Positions 4,267 through 11,696 of a stretch of 18,488 bases of DNA are shown here, in pieces. Below the pieces are notes generated by a model. The model was not told the origin of the DNA. It was given only the letters and a program-made list of their open reading frames with translations, and did not search any database. How positions within the stretch are numbered: the stretch's first letter is position 1; every line of letters begins with the position of its first letter. The stretch is from positions 1 through 18,488 of the forward strand of contig PHAM01000036.1 in NCBI GenBank assembly GCA_002841685.1, read 5' to 3'. The stretch comes from Elusimicrobia bacterium HGW-Elusimicrobia-2 (GTDB lineage: Bacteria > CG03). Position numbers and translations under genes: made by a program.

Positions 4267-4828
4267 ATAAATTGCCTGCTCACAGCGGTATATTTTTTAA
4301 GGGGTTGGATAGATTTCAATGGAAGGAATAGGTGACAAACTGCACGCCACGGCGCACTTTCAGCCGCCGTTCAGTTTGTCGCCGAGAAAAAAAGAAAAGA
4401 GCGCTGTTTCGAAAGAATGATAACAGGCAAGACAGGAGCAAGCGCCGCCGTCCGCTTGCCCCTGTCTTTCTCAGAGAGCAGAGAGCGAAAGGCGGAGCGT
4501 AGCTCCGGCGGTTGAGCGAACAGATGGAAAAAAAGGATTCATTGCAGAAGCCGCAGACCCGCCGAAGGCGGGAAGCCGACAACGGAGGCAAGCGAAGGAG
4601 CAGAGCGACGACGCTGGCGGCTGGACAAAGGGAGCGGACGAAGGCGCTTGTCCGCCGAAAAGGCGGACATTGTGCCGGAGGGGCGCGACCGTCTTTGAGC
4701 GAGGCGCCGGAGAATCCGGACGATGATCGGACGGATAGTCGGAGGCGCCGAGCGATGGCGAGCAAGTGCGAGCCCGCTTGCCCGCTTTATGCGGGCATTG
4801 TGGGCGAGCCTTGGGAGCATAAAATAAT
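4267..4828. repeat. Gene-free GC-rich nest of inverted repeats
   Basis: No believable gene. ORFs here on both strands are arginine/serine-rich, low in hydrophobic residues and unrelated to known families. The sequence is rich in hairpins: a 12-bp arm pair at 4331-4342/4372-4383 (one G-T) enclosing ACGGCG/CGCCGT at 4349-4354/4365-4370; a 14-bp pair with one mismatch at 4431-4444/4453-4466; CGGAGC/GCTCCG at 4493-4498/4502-4507; CCCGCC/GGCGGG at 4558-4563/4567-4572; TGTCCGCC/GGCGGACA at 4649-4656/4662-4669; GCCCGC/GCGGGC at 4780-4785/4791-4796. It may be a cluster of REP- or MITE-like elements or a structured RNA. The first about 60 bases after the barrel gene show no clear terminator. Confidence 0.7.
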
Positions 4829-4858
4829 ATTGCCACGTCGCTCCGCTCCTCGCAATGA
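4829..4858. repeat. Short dispersed-repeat-like palindrome (ATTGC...GCAAT)
   Basis: ATTGC at 4829-4833 pairs with GCAAT at 4852-4856 around a CGTCGCTCCGCTCCTCG core. Read on the other strand it begins TCATTGCGAGGAGCGGAGCG. This closely resembles the short interspersed repeat seen in the intergenic regions of many unrelated bacterial genomes (CATTGCGAGGAGCGAAGCGACG type). Identification is from memory of that repeat's consensus; only one copy is visible here. Confidence 0.55.
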
Positions 4859-4999
4859 CAAAATGAAAAAAATAAAATTGATTTATTCTATGCAAAATAA
4901 TACAATCTTTTTAGATGCAGGGAATCTTATTGAATATTCTCGAAATAGGTTCGAACAAGGTTTAATAAGGTCGATAATTTCAGACTTCGGCGCTGATTC
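4859..4999. other. AT-rich spacer, nothing recognised
   Basis: An AT-rich stretch between the repeat block and the terminator. An open frame crosses it but also runs through the terminator hairpin, has no ribosome binding site and resembles nothing. A GGTTCGAAC near 4948 looks like a tRNA T-loop but has no flanking stem. Confidence 0.6.
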
Positions 5000-5195: not shown

Positions 5196-7364
5196 TCATT
5201 GTTTGCGGAACGACCATTCATCGCCGATGGCGTCGCGGTATATTCCCAGCGGCCTGTCGGGGAATGCCGTTATATTAAAGAATATCCAGGCCTCTCTCCG
5301 GTCGCGCGTGACAAGATATTTGAACATCATATCCCAGCAGTGCAGATTTCTCTTTAGCACAAGTTCCTTCTCTATGACATCTTCCAGCTTAATATCCGTC
5401 TTTCTGTAATTGAAAAATGTCCGGGCCCCGGCCTCAACGACCCATTTGCCGTATTTAAAATTGAAACGCTGGAACCAGTTCAGAAAATCCGGTTCCGCCC
5501 GGTTGTGCGTAAATCTCGACGAGAAATGCCGGCCGCTACCCTCAGCCTCCCAGGAAAGCACCTCGCCGAGAGCTATGTTATAATAATTCCTCGCGTAAAA
5601 ATTCATAGCCCCCGCCCTGAAATTCAGCTGATTCTGAAGGAGCGAGAATCTATTTTCAAGCGGCTGAGACCTTTTTTTCAAATCGTATACAACGCTCTGC
5701 CTGAACACCACATTTCGCGCGGGCCTGTATTCATCGGCGAAAGAAATGTTGTCGGTGACGGGGGTTTTGCCCGGTTCTTTTTTGTAATTATGTGTGAAAG
5801 AAAGTTTGAGCGGCCTGTAAAAATTCAGCGTCGTGTTGATGTCGTGAAAATAATATTCCACGGAATCCAGGTTACCGCTCTTATAAAACTGATAACCTAT
5901 TCTGGGAAACAGCGTTATAGACCGCATTAACCTGTAGCTGTTGAAAATCCGCGCCAGTGAGCTGTGTATGGGCGTATAATCGGAAAAAATAGTTCCCATA
6001 TTAGGGTCGGTGTTGAAATAATTCCTGTAATTATAGCTGAGATCATAGCTGAATAGTTTGAGTTTCACGGGATTCAAACGAAAATAGATTTCAGGCGCTA
6101 TCACATTGTCGGCGTCAAATCTGTTGAGGGAATCTTTCCACGCCTCATTTCTGTATCCCGACAAACGCAGATAATAGGCCGACACGCTTTTTGACACCGA
6201 AGCTCGGCTCCTGATGTAGGTGGGTTTTAGCACCAGCGATTCGTCCCTCAGGTAATTATTGTTAAAGAGCGAGTAATCCTGCACCTCGACATAGGACTGC
6301 CAGAGAAAGCCCGCGGGAAGCTGCTGCCAGTGGCTCTGACGGAAGGTACGGTTGCTTGCTCCGGCGTCTTTTTCGTTTATGCCGTAAACATACAGATTAC
6401 TCTGTGTCGACGGGCTCTTGTAGTCAAGCTCCAGGCCCTTACCGTATCCGAGGCGGCTGAAATAATCATTAAGAAGATAAGTCCTGAAATTATCCGACCA
6501 GTTGTAGCGCAGGCGCGTTTTTACGAAGGTGCCGCTCCTTGAGGACCTGCCCGCCCTGACGGCAAGCGTCCATCTTCTCTCACCGAGACGCTGCCTGTAA
6601 TAGGGCGTATAAAAAACAGGCACCCCTCTGACTGAGAAAACAGCGTGCTTCATCGTCACGCTCTTCTTCTCCACAAAAACTATGCGCGGCGAGGCCATTT
6701 TATAATGAGGCTCGTCGTCATCGCAGGTCGTCAGATACGCCTTGTTAAAAATGTAAGTGTCTCCCAACTGCTCCGCGTCGTGTCCGACAAAATACATATT
6801 ATCCCGGAAGACCCTGGCATTCTGAAAAACCCCGGAAGCCGGCGCGGTGCCGACAGCAAGATGATATTCGGCGCTATCACAGTTCATTGTCGTGGCCGCG
6901 TCCTCTATCCGCACTCGGCTCTTCAGGAACACAAGAGACTCGTTCCTGCGGAACTCGGCTTCGTCCGCGTACAATTTCATCGTGTCCCTCTCTATAAAGA
7001 CATTGCCTGATGAGAAAACTATCTCGCTGCTCTTGCTGTATTTGAGATAATCGCAGCTTATATTGAAAGGCAGATCTTCCTGGGCAAACAAAATCCCGGG
7101 GGCGAAAACAACAAAAGCCAAAAAGCTCATTCCCGCAAACAAGTTTTTTAATGCGAGAAGCGGGGCGGATGGTATCCGGCAGGGCTCTATGAGCGAGGGG
7201 TTTTGCTCACTTCCCGAAGCGAATTGAGAGCGAAGCGCATACCTGAGCGTCCCTGACGGATATCTCCGGCGCGCAACGACATTATGAGCTCCGGATGGCA
7301 TACAGCGCTTGAGCTTGTTAAAAGGATTACGGACGCTGCCCATCTGTGCGTTAAAGCAGCGCAA
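5196..7364 (-). CDS. lptD: LPS-assembly protein LptD (OstA/Imp family)
   Basis: Outer-membrane protein that inserts lipopolysaccharide into the outer leaflet. After the signal peptide (hydrophobic about 78-94, probable cleavage after LFA before Q95) comes an LptA-like OstA_N domain (about 98-215) with repeating short strands. Then comes the LptD signature around TTCDDDEPHYK and VPVFYTPYY, followed by a long aromatic-rich beta-barrel to the C terminus. About 630 mature residues is somewhat shorter than E. coli LptD. The start is uncertain: the longest frame begins with TTG at 7364 inside the end of the ROK gene, with ATGs at 7343, 7301 and 7130. The first about 70 codons include a palindromic element (7165-7270), and the ATG at 7130 would give a signal peptide with no basic n-region. 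It ends 57 nt before tRNA-Pro. Confidence 0.85.
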   Translation of the reverse strand: MRCFNAQMGSVRNPFNKLKRCMPSGAHNVVARRRYPSGTLRYALRSQFASGSEQNPSLIEPCRIPSAPLLALKNLFAGMSFLAFVVFAPGILFAQEDLPFNISCDYLKYSKSSEIVFSSGNVFIERDTMKLYADEAEFRRNESLVFLKSRVRIEDAATTMNCDSAEYHLAVGTAPASGVFQNARVFRDNMYFVGHDAEQLGDTYIFNKAYLTTCDDDEPHYKMASPRIVFVEKKSVTMKHAVFSVRGVPVFYTPYYRQRLGERRWTLAVRAGRSSRSGTFVKTRLRYNWSDNFRTYLLNDYFSRLGYGKGLELDYKSPSTQSNLYVYGINEKDAGASNRTFRQSHWQQLPAGFLWQSYVEVQDYSLFNNNYLRDESLVLKPTYIRSRASVSKSVSAYYLRLSGYRNEAWKDSLNRFDADNVIAPEIYFRLNPVKLKLFSYDLSYNYRNYFNTDPNMGTIFSDYTPIHSSLARIFNSYRLMRSITLFPRIGYQFYKSGNLDSVEYYFHDINTTLNFYRPLKLSFTHNYKKEPGKTPVTDNISFADEYRPARNVVFRQSVVYDLKKRSQPLENRFSLLQNQLNFRAGAMNFYARNYYNIALGEVLSWEAEGSGRHFSSRFTHNRAEPDFLNWFQRFNFKYGKWVVEAGARTFFNYRKTDIKLEDVIEKELVLKRNLHCWDMMFKYLVTRDRREAWIFFNITAFPDRPLGIYRDAIGDEWSFRKQ
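7165..7270. repeat. Palindromic element A (106 bp, terminal inverted repeats) at the lptD 5' end
   Basis: The ends at 7165-7184 and 7251-7270 are inverted repeats matching at about 15 of 20 positions, best over GGTATCCGGCAGGG versus GATATCCGTCAGGG. The interior is clearly related to element B at 11526-11641: the core TATGAGCGAGG(G/A)GTTTT matches at 16 of 17 positions, and AGCGAATTG, AGCGAA and TGAGCG blocks follow in the same order. Matches were counted by eye. The element lies between the ROK stop codon and the lptD signal peptide and is open in the lptD frame. It has a 1-nt shift relative to B. Confidence 0.75.
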
Positions 7365-9917: not shown

Positions 9918-11696
9918 TCACTTGTATTTTATCAAATCCTCCGGAACATACCATTTCAAGAAATTATGCGATATCCCCGCTCTTGCCGGTTCAATCCCGT
10001 GGAAACGCGAAGCGACAACAGTGAGAGAATCAGGGGCGTAAAGAAAACAGTACGGCTGATCGGAAGCTATCATCTCCTGGATACGGCCGTAGATTTTTTT
10101 TCTTTCCCCGCGGACAAAACTCATGCGGCCCTTATCTATGAGCGCGTCAACTTCGGGGTTTTTGTATGAGACAAAATTAAAACCTCCGGGGCGGGCCTCG
10201 GAAGAATGCCACAGAGAATAGCAATCCGGATCCACGGCTGTGGACCAGCCGAGCACAATAGCGTCAAAATCCCTGCGGTCTATGTGCCTGTTTATCAGCG
10301 TCGCCCATTCCAGTATCCGTATTTCCGAGGCGATGCCGGCCTCTTTGAGCTGCGACTGTATGATCGTGGCGGCCTCCTCCCTCATTTTATTCCCCTGGTT
10401 TGTGAGAATAGTGAAAGAAAATTTACGGCCATCCCTGTCACGCACACCGTCGCCGTCGGTATCTCTCCATCCGGCCTCATCAAGCAGCGCCCGGGCGCGG
10501 ACGGGATCATAGTCGAACTTCTCCACATCGGGATTATAAGCCCATGACGAGGGCGGATAATTGGAGTGTATCTGCACGCCGCATCCCAGGAGCACGGCAT
10601 CAACGATCGCTTTTTTGTCTATCGCATAGCTTATTGCCCGGCGCACCCTTCTGTCTTTAAACAGCGGATTTGTCAGGTTATATCCCATATAAGCGTATTG
10701 AAAAGCGCCATAGCGGAATTTGTTGTAATTCCTGTTGAATTCCTCATTATCCGTTTCGTATTTATACTGATGCGGCGTGAGGCCCATACTGTCTATGCCC
10801 CGCTTCCTGAGCTCGAGAAACTGCACGGAGCTATCGGGTATTATCCTGTAGATTATCCTCGCGATATTCCCCGTCTCCTCAAAATATTCACTGTTTTTTT
10901 CCAGGACTATCTTCTCTCCCGACAGCCATTTGACAAATTTGTAGGCGCCTGTGCCGACGGGCTTTCTGTTGGCCGGATTTTTATCAAAATCGCCCTGCTC
11001 AAATATGTGCCTGGGTATTATCCCCAAACCCCACGACTCGAGCGCGGGAGAATATGCCCTGGAATATTTTACGACCAGCGTGTGCTCATCAGGAGCGTTG
11101 ACGCTGTCTATCATCTTAAAGCGTCCGCTGCGCGGTGAGATGATGTCCGGATCCACAAGGCATTGATAGGTGAACACAACATCGCCGGCTGTGAAAGCCC
11201 GTCCGTCGTGCCACTTCACATCGTCCCTCAGCTTGAAAACAATGGTCTTCCCTCCGTCCAGCACTTCCCAGCTCCGGGCCAGATCACCGACAAGAACAAG
11301 ATCCTTGTCATATTTGACCAGACCGTTGTAAACGAGATCATTTATTTCCGCCGACGCCGAATCCCCCGCGAGCACGGGATTGAGATAGGACGCGTCGCCG
11401 AGCATCGCAAAAACTATCGTCGCGCCCTCTTCGCGGCCTCTCTCTCCCGGCGAACAACCCTGCAGGAAGGCCGCCGCGCAGAGCATCGCGCACAAAAGCA
11501 CATTGACTACGCCATGGCGTATAATCGCAACGGACGGTATTCGTAGCGGGCCATATGAGCGAGGAGTTTTACCCCCTGCTCCGAGCGAATTGGCAGCGAA
11601 CCGCACACGTGAGCGGCCGTCTAAGGATACCGTCGGCTGCGACTGCTTACGAGTTATACCTATATGCCCGAAGCTGCGCATATTGATTTTAGCCAC
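9918..11696 (-). CDS. Family-5 extracellular solute-binding lipoprotein (peptide ABC transporter type)
   Basis: Binds oligopeptides or similar solutes outside the inner membrane for an ABC importer. The SBP_bac_5 pattern is complete: FAMLGDASYLNPVLAGD, LARSWEVLDGGKTIVFKLRDDVKWHDG, FTAGDVVFTY, PVGTGAYKF, RRVRRAISYAIDK and YNPDVEKFDYDPVRARALLDEAGW, followed by DTDGDGVRDRDG, a calcium-loop-like insertion common in this family. A lipoprotein signal ends in AAAFLQGC (Cys 81). The GTG start at 11696 lies inside the polX stop region and ATG 11681 is an alternative. Either leaves about 60 residues before the hydrophobic core, encoded largely by palindromic element B; normal signal peptides have under 10. 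GTG 11501 would give a short signal without basic residues. No permease or ATPase gene is nearby. It lies 10 nt from the next gene. Confidence 0.88.
   Translation of the reverse strand: MAKINMRSFGHIGITRKQSQPTVSLDGRSRVRFAANSLGAGGKTPRSYGPLRIPSVAIIRHGVVNVLLCAMLCAAAFLQGCSPGERGREEGATIVFAMLGDASYLNPVLAGDSASAEINDLVYNGLVKYDKDLVLVGDLARSWEVLDGGKTIVFKLRDDVKWHDGRAFTAGDVVFTYQCLVDPDIISPRSGRFKMIDSVNAPDEHTLVVKYSRAYSPALESWGLGIIPRHIFEQGDFDKNPANRKPVGTGAYKFVKWLSGEKIVLEKNSEYFEETGNIARIIYRIIPDSSVQFLELRKRGIDSMGLTPHQYKYETDNEEFNRNYNKFRYGAFQYAYMGYNLTNPLFKDRRVRRAISYAIDKKAIVDAVLLGCGVQIHSNYPPSSWAYNPDVEKFDYDPVRARALLDEAGWRDTDGDGVRDRDGRKFSFTILTNQGNKMREEAATIIQSQLKEAGIASEIRILEWATLINRHIDRRDFDAIVLGWSTAVDPDCYSLWHSSEARPGGFNFVSYKNPEVDALIDKGRMSFVRGERKKIYGRIQEMIASDQPYCFLYAPDSLTVVASRFHGIEPARAGISHNFLKWYVPEDLIKYK
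11526..11641. repeat. Palindromic element B (116 bp, terminal inverted repeats) at the solute-binding gene 5' end
   Basis: The ends at 11526-11550 and 11617-11641 are inverted repeats matching at about 19 of 25 positions (ACGGTAT shared exactly). The interior aligns with element A at 7165-7270. Read on the - strand it is open in the frame of the solute-binding gene and encodes a peptide containing RVRFAANSL and GKTPRS; element A encodes MRFALNSL and KTPRS in a shifted frame. Both elements end in codons for RIPS immediately before the signal-peptide core. Matches were counted by eye. Confidence 0.75.

Follow-up and report, generated by a model that had tools for sequence, protein, structure and literature searches.

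The window analysed here (the whole stretch of 18,488 nucleotides) holds two short palindromic elements, A and B, in front of two unrelated genes for exported proteins, and the question it raises is what these elements are and how they come to lie there. The original prediction, made from the letters of the window alone, was that A and B share a core, that their terminal arms differ between the copies but are complementary within each, and that this hints at selection for a fold or at a MITE-like mobile element. A BLAST search of the genome from which the window comes (G000; 1.78 Mb in 94 contigs) with A as the query recovers B (E = 1.3e-10) together with 14 more copies with E <= 1e-9, and a covariance model built from 22 copies (R1) finds 23 copies in this genome and matches both elements where they had been predicted (Table 1). 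The similarity of A to B is thus not that of shuffled sequence, and the pair does not stand alone. The core of the element is about 110 bp long and members of the family measure about 110–160 bp; in the predicted folds the outer stem extends to about 7160–7274 in A and to about 11525–11642 in B.

Table 1. Positions in the window of elements A and B, their parts and the two genes that contain them.
Feature	Position	Strand	Details
OstA/LptD-like gene	5196..7343	-	start ATG 7343-7341; Pfam OstA_2 just below cut-off
Element A	7164..7271	+ (structured, G.A-containing strand)	R1 106 bits, E 4.7e-27; fold
5' arm of outer stem P1 of A	7164..7178	+	partner 7257-7271; sequence varies among copies, complementarity kept
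Hairpin P2 of A	7185..7228	+	tandem G.A mismatches (TGAGCGAGG / CCCGAAGCGAA); alignment and pair counts
Hairpin P3 of A	7230..7248	+	GCGAAG-CGCATAC-CTGAGC; tandem G.A between covarying pairs
3' arm of outer stem P1 of A	7257..7271	+	fold, pair counts
Solute-binding lipoprotein gene	9918..11681	-	ATG 11681 or GTG 11696; Pfam SBP_bac_5 E 2.7e-96
Element B	11529..11638	+	R1 117 bits, E 4.2e-30; fold
Hairpin P2 of B	11550..11594	+	GCCATATGAGCGAGGAG...CTCCGAGCGAATTGGC, two tandem G.A steps
Hairpin P3 of B	11596..11614	+	GCGAAC-CGCACAC-GTGAGC with tandem G.A

Searching the genome and its relatives with the copies, by BLAST and then by covariance model, was expected to reveal many more if the elements are mobile, and it did so: all eight genomes of the class that were searched with R1 (two families, five genera) carry the repeat, in 23, 6, 3, 16, 1, 24, 12 and 39 copies. 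These numbers (24 in G005 and at least 12 in G006) are underestimates in draft genomes, because several G006 contigs break off inside or at an element (L303, L304, L305, L309). The same R1 search of the other eight genomes of the phylum found no copy. When 193 genomes were searched with a wider model (R2), the one carrier added was G082, which belongs to a different phylum and has 7 copies (E 6e-9 to 2e-5); its congener and four more genomes of that phylum gave none. Such a patchy occurrence suggests horizontal spread. Two matches from a phage pattern scan were due to chance and were rejected by the model. Neither A nor B matches an Rfam family at the gathering threshold, and for four other copies nothing in Rfam matched the element even when E values up to 1 were allowed, so that the covariance-model searches place these copies in no Rfam RNA family. 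A and B are members of one palindromic repeat family that occurs throughout an entire class of uncultivated bacteria.

What holds this family together is a common three-armed fold of one strand, in which an outer stem (P1) closes a junction that carries the hairpins P2 and P3. P3, the most conserved part of the element and present in G082 too, reads GCGAA(C/G)-CGCATAC-(G/C)TGAGC across copies and contains one tandem G.A step, and P2 of B (ATGAGCGAGGAG...CTCCGAGCGAAT) consists of Watson-Crick pairs broken by tandem G.A/A.G steps. Double changes occur in 15 of the 29 pairs in a 22-copy alignment that was not fitted to the structure (0/500 shuffles) and in 26 of 29 in a 72-copy alignment that was fitted to it; the latter has 299 double-changed cells versus 92 in shuffles, and a covariation score of 0.418 versus at most 0.084 for slid versions. 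The claim that each copy keeps its own arms complementary extends from A and B to these 72 copies, where 13 of the 14 outer-stem pairs have changed on both sides, and the P1 arms of different genera are wholly different in sequence and still complementary. The pairs beside the P3 mismatch swap as well (C-G to G-C in 13 copies, A-U to G-C in 25), and the G.A letters themselves are nearly invariant and among the least variable columns (the P3 step is intact in 70/72 copies and the first P2 step in 64/72). Copies from G005 and G006 have an extra tandem G.A at the foot of P1 (GCGAGTGG/CCACGAGC), and those from G082 keep P3 and have a plain helix as P2. When both strands of 91 copies were folded with DNA parameters, the G.A-containing one came out better in 88. 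Complementary arms can alternatively be kept by template-switch correction of quasi-palindromes, with no selection involved; such correction, however, would erase the conserved mismatches. Strong covariation of the three-armed structure, combined with conserved tandem G.A mismatches, supports the suggested selection for a fold, and it is the fold, not the ends, that is conserved in this family.

Comparison of orthologous sites shows that copies differ in presence and orientation between species. At several compared sites relatives have the same copy in the same orientation, among them B, which in the sister genome G003 (flanks about 95% identical to those in G000) is unchanged in position and orientation and 96% identical. 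We scored a copy as inverted in place if the two copies were each other's best match when compared with every copy fetched from the partner genome; two pairs, L089 (G000) versus L105 (G003) and L091 (G000) versus L112 (G001), are inverted between their arms in this way, and L086/L099 is probably a third. Four orthologous sites with copies in opposite orientation (L084 twice, L085 and L079/L097) were rejected as flips since their copies are not mutual best matches, and replacement or independent insertion is the more likely explanation of these alignments. Still other sites have a different copy at the same place in a relative, so sites are re-used. Element A is absent from G003, where the flanks are joined and the site is 117 bp shorter, with a single CGGATGATAT at the junction in place of the CGGATGGTAT and CGGATGGCAT that mark the two ends in G000; this absence can be a deletion between the 10-bp direct repeats instead of an original empty site. 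No target-site duplication is constant in the flanks of the copies, and the direct repeat at site A fits a deletion as well. G002 has neither element nor flanking residue at site A, and one G000 element site, in the BatD gene, is reduced in G002 to a remnant. Presence and absence, in-place inversion and patchy distribution between relatives all agree with the suggestion of a MITE-like mobile element. The shared orientation of A and B, in contrast, is correct for these two copies and is not a general rule: 31 copies are antisense and 14 sense to their neighbouring genes (p = 0.016, the copies not being independent), a sister species has at least two of them inverted, and the excess may merely reflect fewer stop codons in antisense frames. 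Most of the G005 copies (L281-L290) lie directly 3' of another small hairpin repeat (GCAGACCAAGGGTCTGCAGCTACATT), which suggests that they were inserted next to it.

The elements were also predicted to lie between the stop codon of the upstream gene and a signal-peptide core; they do precede the core, but inside the coding sequence, after the start codon. The ATG of the OstA-like gene lies 8 nt past the stop of the upstream ROK gene, and A interrupts the protein in frame, after MGSVRNPFNKLKRCM and ahead of the hydrophobic core LAFVVFAPGILFAQ; the first residues match the starts of this gene in G002 (MPVRLNFFQKLTTC) and G003 (MGSVLNPFNKLKSC), both of which lack the element at this site. B is in frame ahead of the lipoprotein signal VNVLLCAMLCAAAFLQGC. 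In the BatD gene the start codon and the 30 nt upstream are nearly identical in G000, G003 and G002, and G000 and G003 carry different (non-homologous) copies in opposite orientation and in different frames, both of which are open. A kelch-repeat protein starts in three species at a TTG after a Shine-Dalgarno sequence (AAAAGGGG), and in G003 a nested 39-bp repeat preserves its frame; a TPR/SH3 protein contains the element in G002 but is element-free in G000; and the L083/L106 protein and a TPM protein of G007 also have an in-frame element, placed after the start and before the hydrophobic core. The signal peptides were identified by eye. In all seven genes with in-frame copies, of which BatD, kelch, OstA-like and TPR are the best supported, the insert is between the start codon and the hydrophobic core. 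For the genes of B, L083 and TPM, compared without an element-free ortholog, a start codon downstream of the element is possible. The n-region of a signal peptide may well be the place where a coding insert does least harm, as cleavage of the signal peptide would take the segment away.

The copies within these open reading frames might instead be untranslated, with the real starts downstream and the element an ordinary intergenic repeat. In L092, L093 and L104, where a better start follows the element, we rejected the element as coding sequence for this reason, and TTG and ATG candidates are found downstream of A too. We nevertheless consider this explanation unlikely for the family's in-frame copies, given that the BatD start region is nearly the same in element-bearing and element-free species, that the upstream start of the A-containing gene is homologous to that of G002, that the kelch start and its Shine-Dalgarno sequence are conserved in three species, and that the differences between species keep the frame.

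In the genomes searched we found no autonomous relative of the element and no mobilising enzyme. Extra half-copies in G006 were checked as parts of a possible autonomous copy and sit at contig ends, that is, at assembly breaks; and RVT_1 (reverse transcriptase) has no match in 14 genomes that include all nine carriers. Another candidate is a RAYT (TnpA-REP), a Y1/HUH enzyme that would read a single-stranded hairpin with mismatches and move the element as a REP/REPIN-type repeat. Y1_Tnp proteins are present in six of the eight class genomes and in G082 (7/9 carriers), and the E. coli REP likewise has a conserved mismatch that is needed for processing of one strand (PMC8266576). On the other hand, the draft genomes G005 (89% complete) and G006 (95% complete) have no Y1 match in spite of their many copies, those of G006 being nearly identical and so recent; Y1 genes also occur in non-carrier genomes; R1 has no match in windows of about 3 kb around eight Y1 genes, so that no copy lies within about 1.5 kb of those examined; the element is about three times as long as a REP and is not two inverted REPs; and an unsystematic look noticed no GTAG tag. 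Y1 transposases, found in the majority of carriers though not in every one, and with no copy beside the genes examined, do not track the element; we set them aside as the mobiliser, and a REP-type origin of the element seems improbable to us. L312 and L313 are single-copy Y1 (RAYT-like) genes; the former encodes an extended C-terminal part, is conserved in G000, G001 and G003, and adjoins ABC-transporter ATPase genes.

Two further explanations were weighed. A structured RNA, acting in cis or in trans and amplified because it is useful, would account for the covariation, for the conserved tandem G.A mismatches and for the mild excess of one orientation, although that excess may have the trivial cause given above. 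A cis-regulator, however, would hardly occur in both orientations to genes, be inverted in place, be lost in relatives, be inserted into coding sequence or have other repeats nested in P2, and with no Rfam match for the copies searched we think it quite unlikely that the fold acts as RNA. A MITE of the classical kind, descended from a DDE insertion sequence and recognised by its terminal inverted repeats, would agree in size, inverted repeats, copy number and presence or absence between species. Its terminal repeats should be the constant part, whereas here they are the most variable one, wholly different between genera, and the internal hairpins are conserved, the reverse of what recognition of the termini predicts; no consistent target duplication is seen in the flanks either, and this origin is very unlikely.

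Several known repeats resemble the element in part. Rickettsia palindromic elements (RPE) are short palindromic repeats, several of them in frame in unrelated genes whose product they lengthen (PMC10969869). As in that case, a palindrome of 100–150 bp is repeated in the genome (here 23 copies) and is in frame within protein-coding genes (here seven); unlike RPE, our copies belong to a different, unrelated lineage, lie in signal peptides, have a three-armed fold with conserved tandem G.A, and differ in orientation and frame instead of keeping a conserved peptide in one frame. This likeness is drawn from the description of RPE in that review. The Correia elements of Neisseria are, according to Elbeyioglu et al. 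2017 as summarised in PMC10969869, short inverted-repeat elements upstream of genes that invert in place. Our elements share with them the short inverted repeats upstream of genes and the flipping. Correia elements have fixed terminal repeats, whereas here the arms vary, the inner fold is fixed and there are in-frame insertions in signal peptides. REP/REPIN sequences moved by RAYTs are strand-specific hairpins with conserved mismatches, many copies and no autonomy (PMC8266576, PMC3116915), and our element resembles them in this; the strand-specific mismatch hairpin of 20–40 bp may have its counterpart in P2 and P3, which are strand-specific and hold G.A mismatches but form parts of a 110-bp fold. 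Our element is longer and three-armed, its carriers do not all show a cognate Y1/HUH transposase (G005 and G006, as drafts, have no match), and copies flanking a transposase gene were not found. ERIC (IRU) sequences are imperfect palindromes of similar size that vary between strains and are occasionally intragenic (PMC10969869). Imperfect palindromes, size, variable copies and some intragenic ones are features of our element too. ERIC is gammaproteobacterial and conserved in sequence over its length; in our family conservation is confined to the fold and the inner hairpins. In place of the conserved terminal inverted repeats that a DDE-type MITE shares with a parent IS, we find arms that differ between copies and genera. 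The likeness of the element to RPE and, in its flipping, to Correia elements is one of behaviour; it fails the tested defining features of REP-RAYT systems and of MITEs recognised by their terminal repeats.

In our view A and B probably belong to a MITE-like family of palindromic mobile elements that are non-autonomous, recognised by their fold and tolerated in the n-regions of signal peptides. The family would be defined by a one-strand fold (an outer stem closing a junction with P2, P3 and tandem G.A) and not by a fixed terminal repeat; a host enzyme would recognise the folded single strand, most likely ssDNA, and move the element in trans; and the outer arms may be free to vary because nothing but their pairing counts. 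Correia elements are known to invert in place (PMC10969869), as are small chloroplast DNA segments between short inverted repeats, so by analogy flipping should need no dedicated enzyme. In compact genomes, copies would survive between genes or, repeatedly, in frame in a signal-peptide n-region, where 35–39 extra residues could be tolerated, being lost when the signal peptide is cleaved off, and a benefit to the host is not needed. A more far-reaching reading, that this is a mobile element identified by its single-strand fold (a three-way junction with tandem G.A hairpins) instead of its terminal sequence and moved by an enzyme still to be discovered, which crosses phyla, flips in place and repeatedly lodges in signal peptides as a translated insert, is put forward as a tentative and somewhat doubtful possibility. 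In-frame palindromic elements have rarely been described outside Rickettsia, and here they would occur in a second, unrelated lineage with a clear rule of tolerance (before the signal-peptide core) that makes selfish DNA inside coding sequence testable. The near-invariant mismatches and freely changing arms form a natural set of substrates for finding the mobilising enzyme, and annotators of this class can easily misplace the start codons of exported proteins around such inserts.

Other small repeats accompany the element. Several copies (L083:845-864, L084:2084-2103, L080:1996-2015) carry a smaller palindromic repeat (CTGAGCCTTGCGAAGTCCGCCTCTGGAGGACG) within their P2 region, and a second nested repeat (ACAATGCATAAGGCCAAGCATAATTGCAGGCGAAGCCTG) occurs in L082, L106 and L109. 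The 3' arm of one G000 copy contains yet another palindromic repeat (GAGGGATTTCTATGAAATCCCCGGGACTTAGTCCTGGAGATTCTACGAATCTC, at L091:2119-2185), and a related one follows a G001 copy (L114). The minus strand of the window at 4820-4870 contains a short repeat of the type GTCATTGCGAGGAGCGGAGCGACGTGGCAAT, and a similar one near L095 (GTCATTTCGAGCGAAGCGAGAAATC) forms a hairpin with the same tandem G.A step; repeats of this GTCATTGCGAGGAGCGGAGCGACGTGGCAAT type may be simpler architectural relatives of the element.
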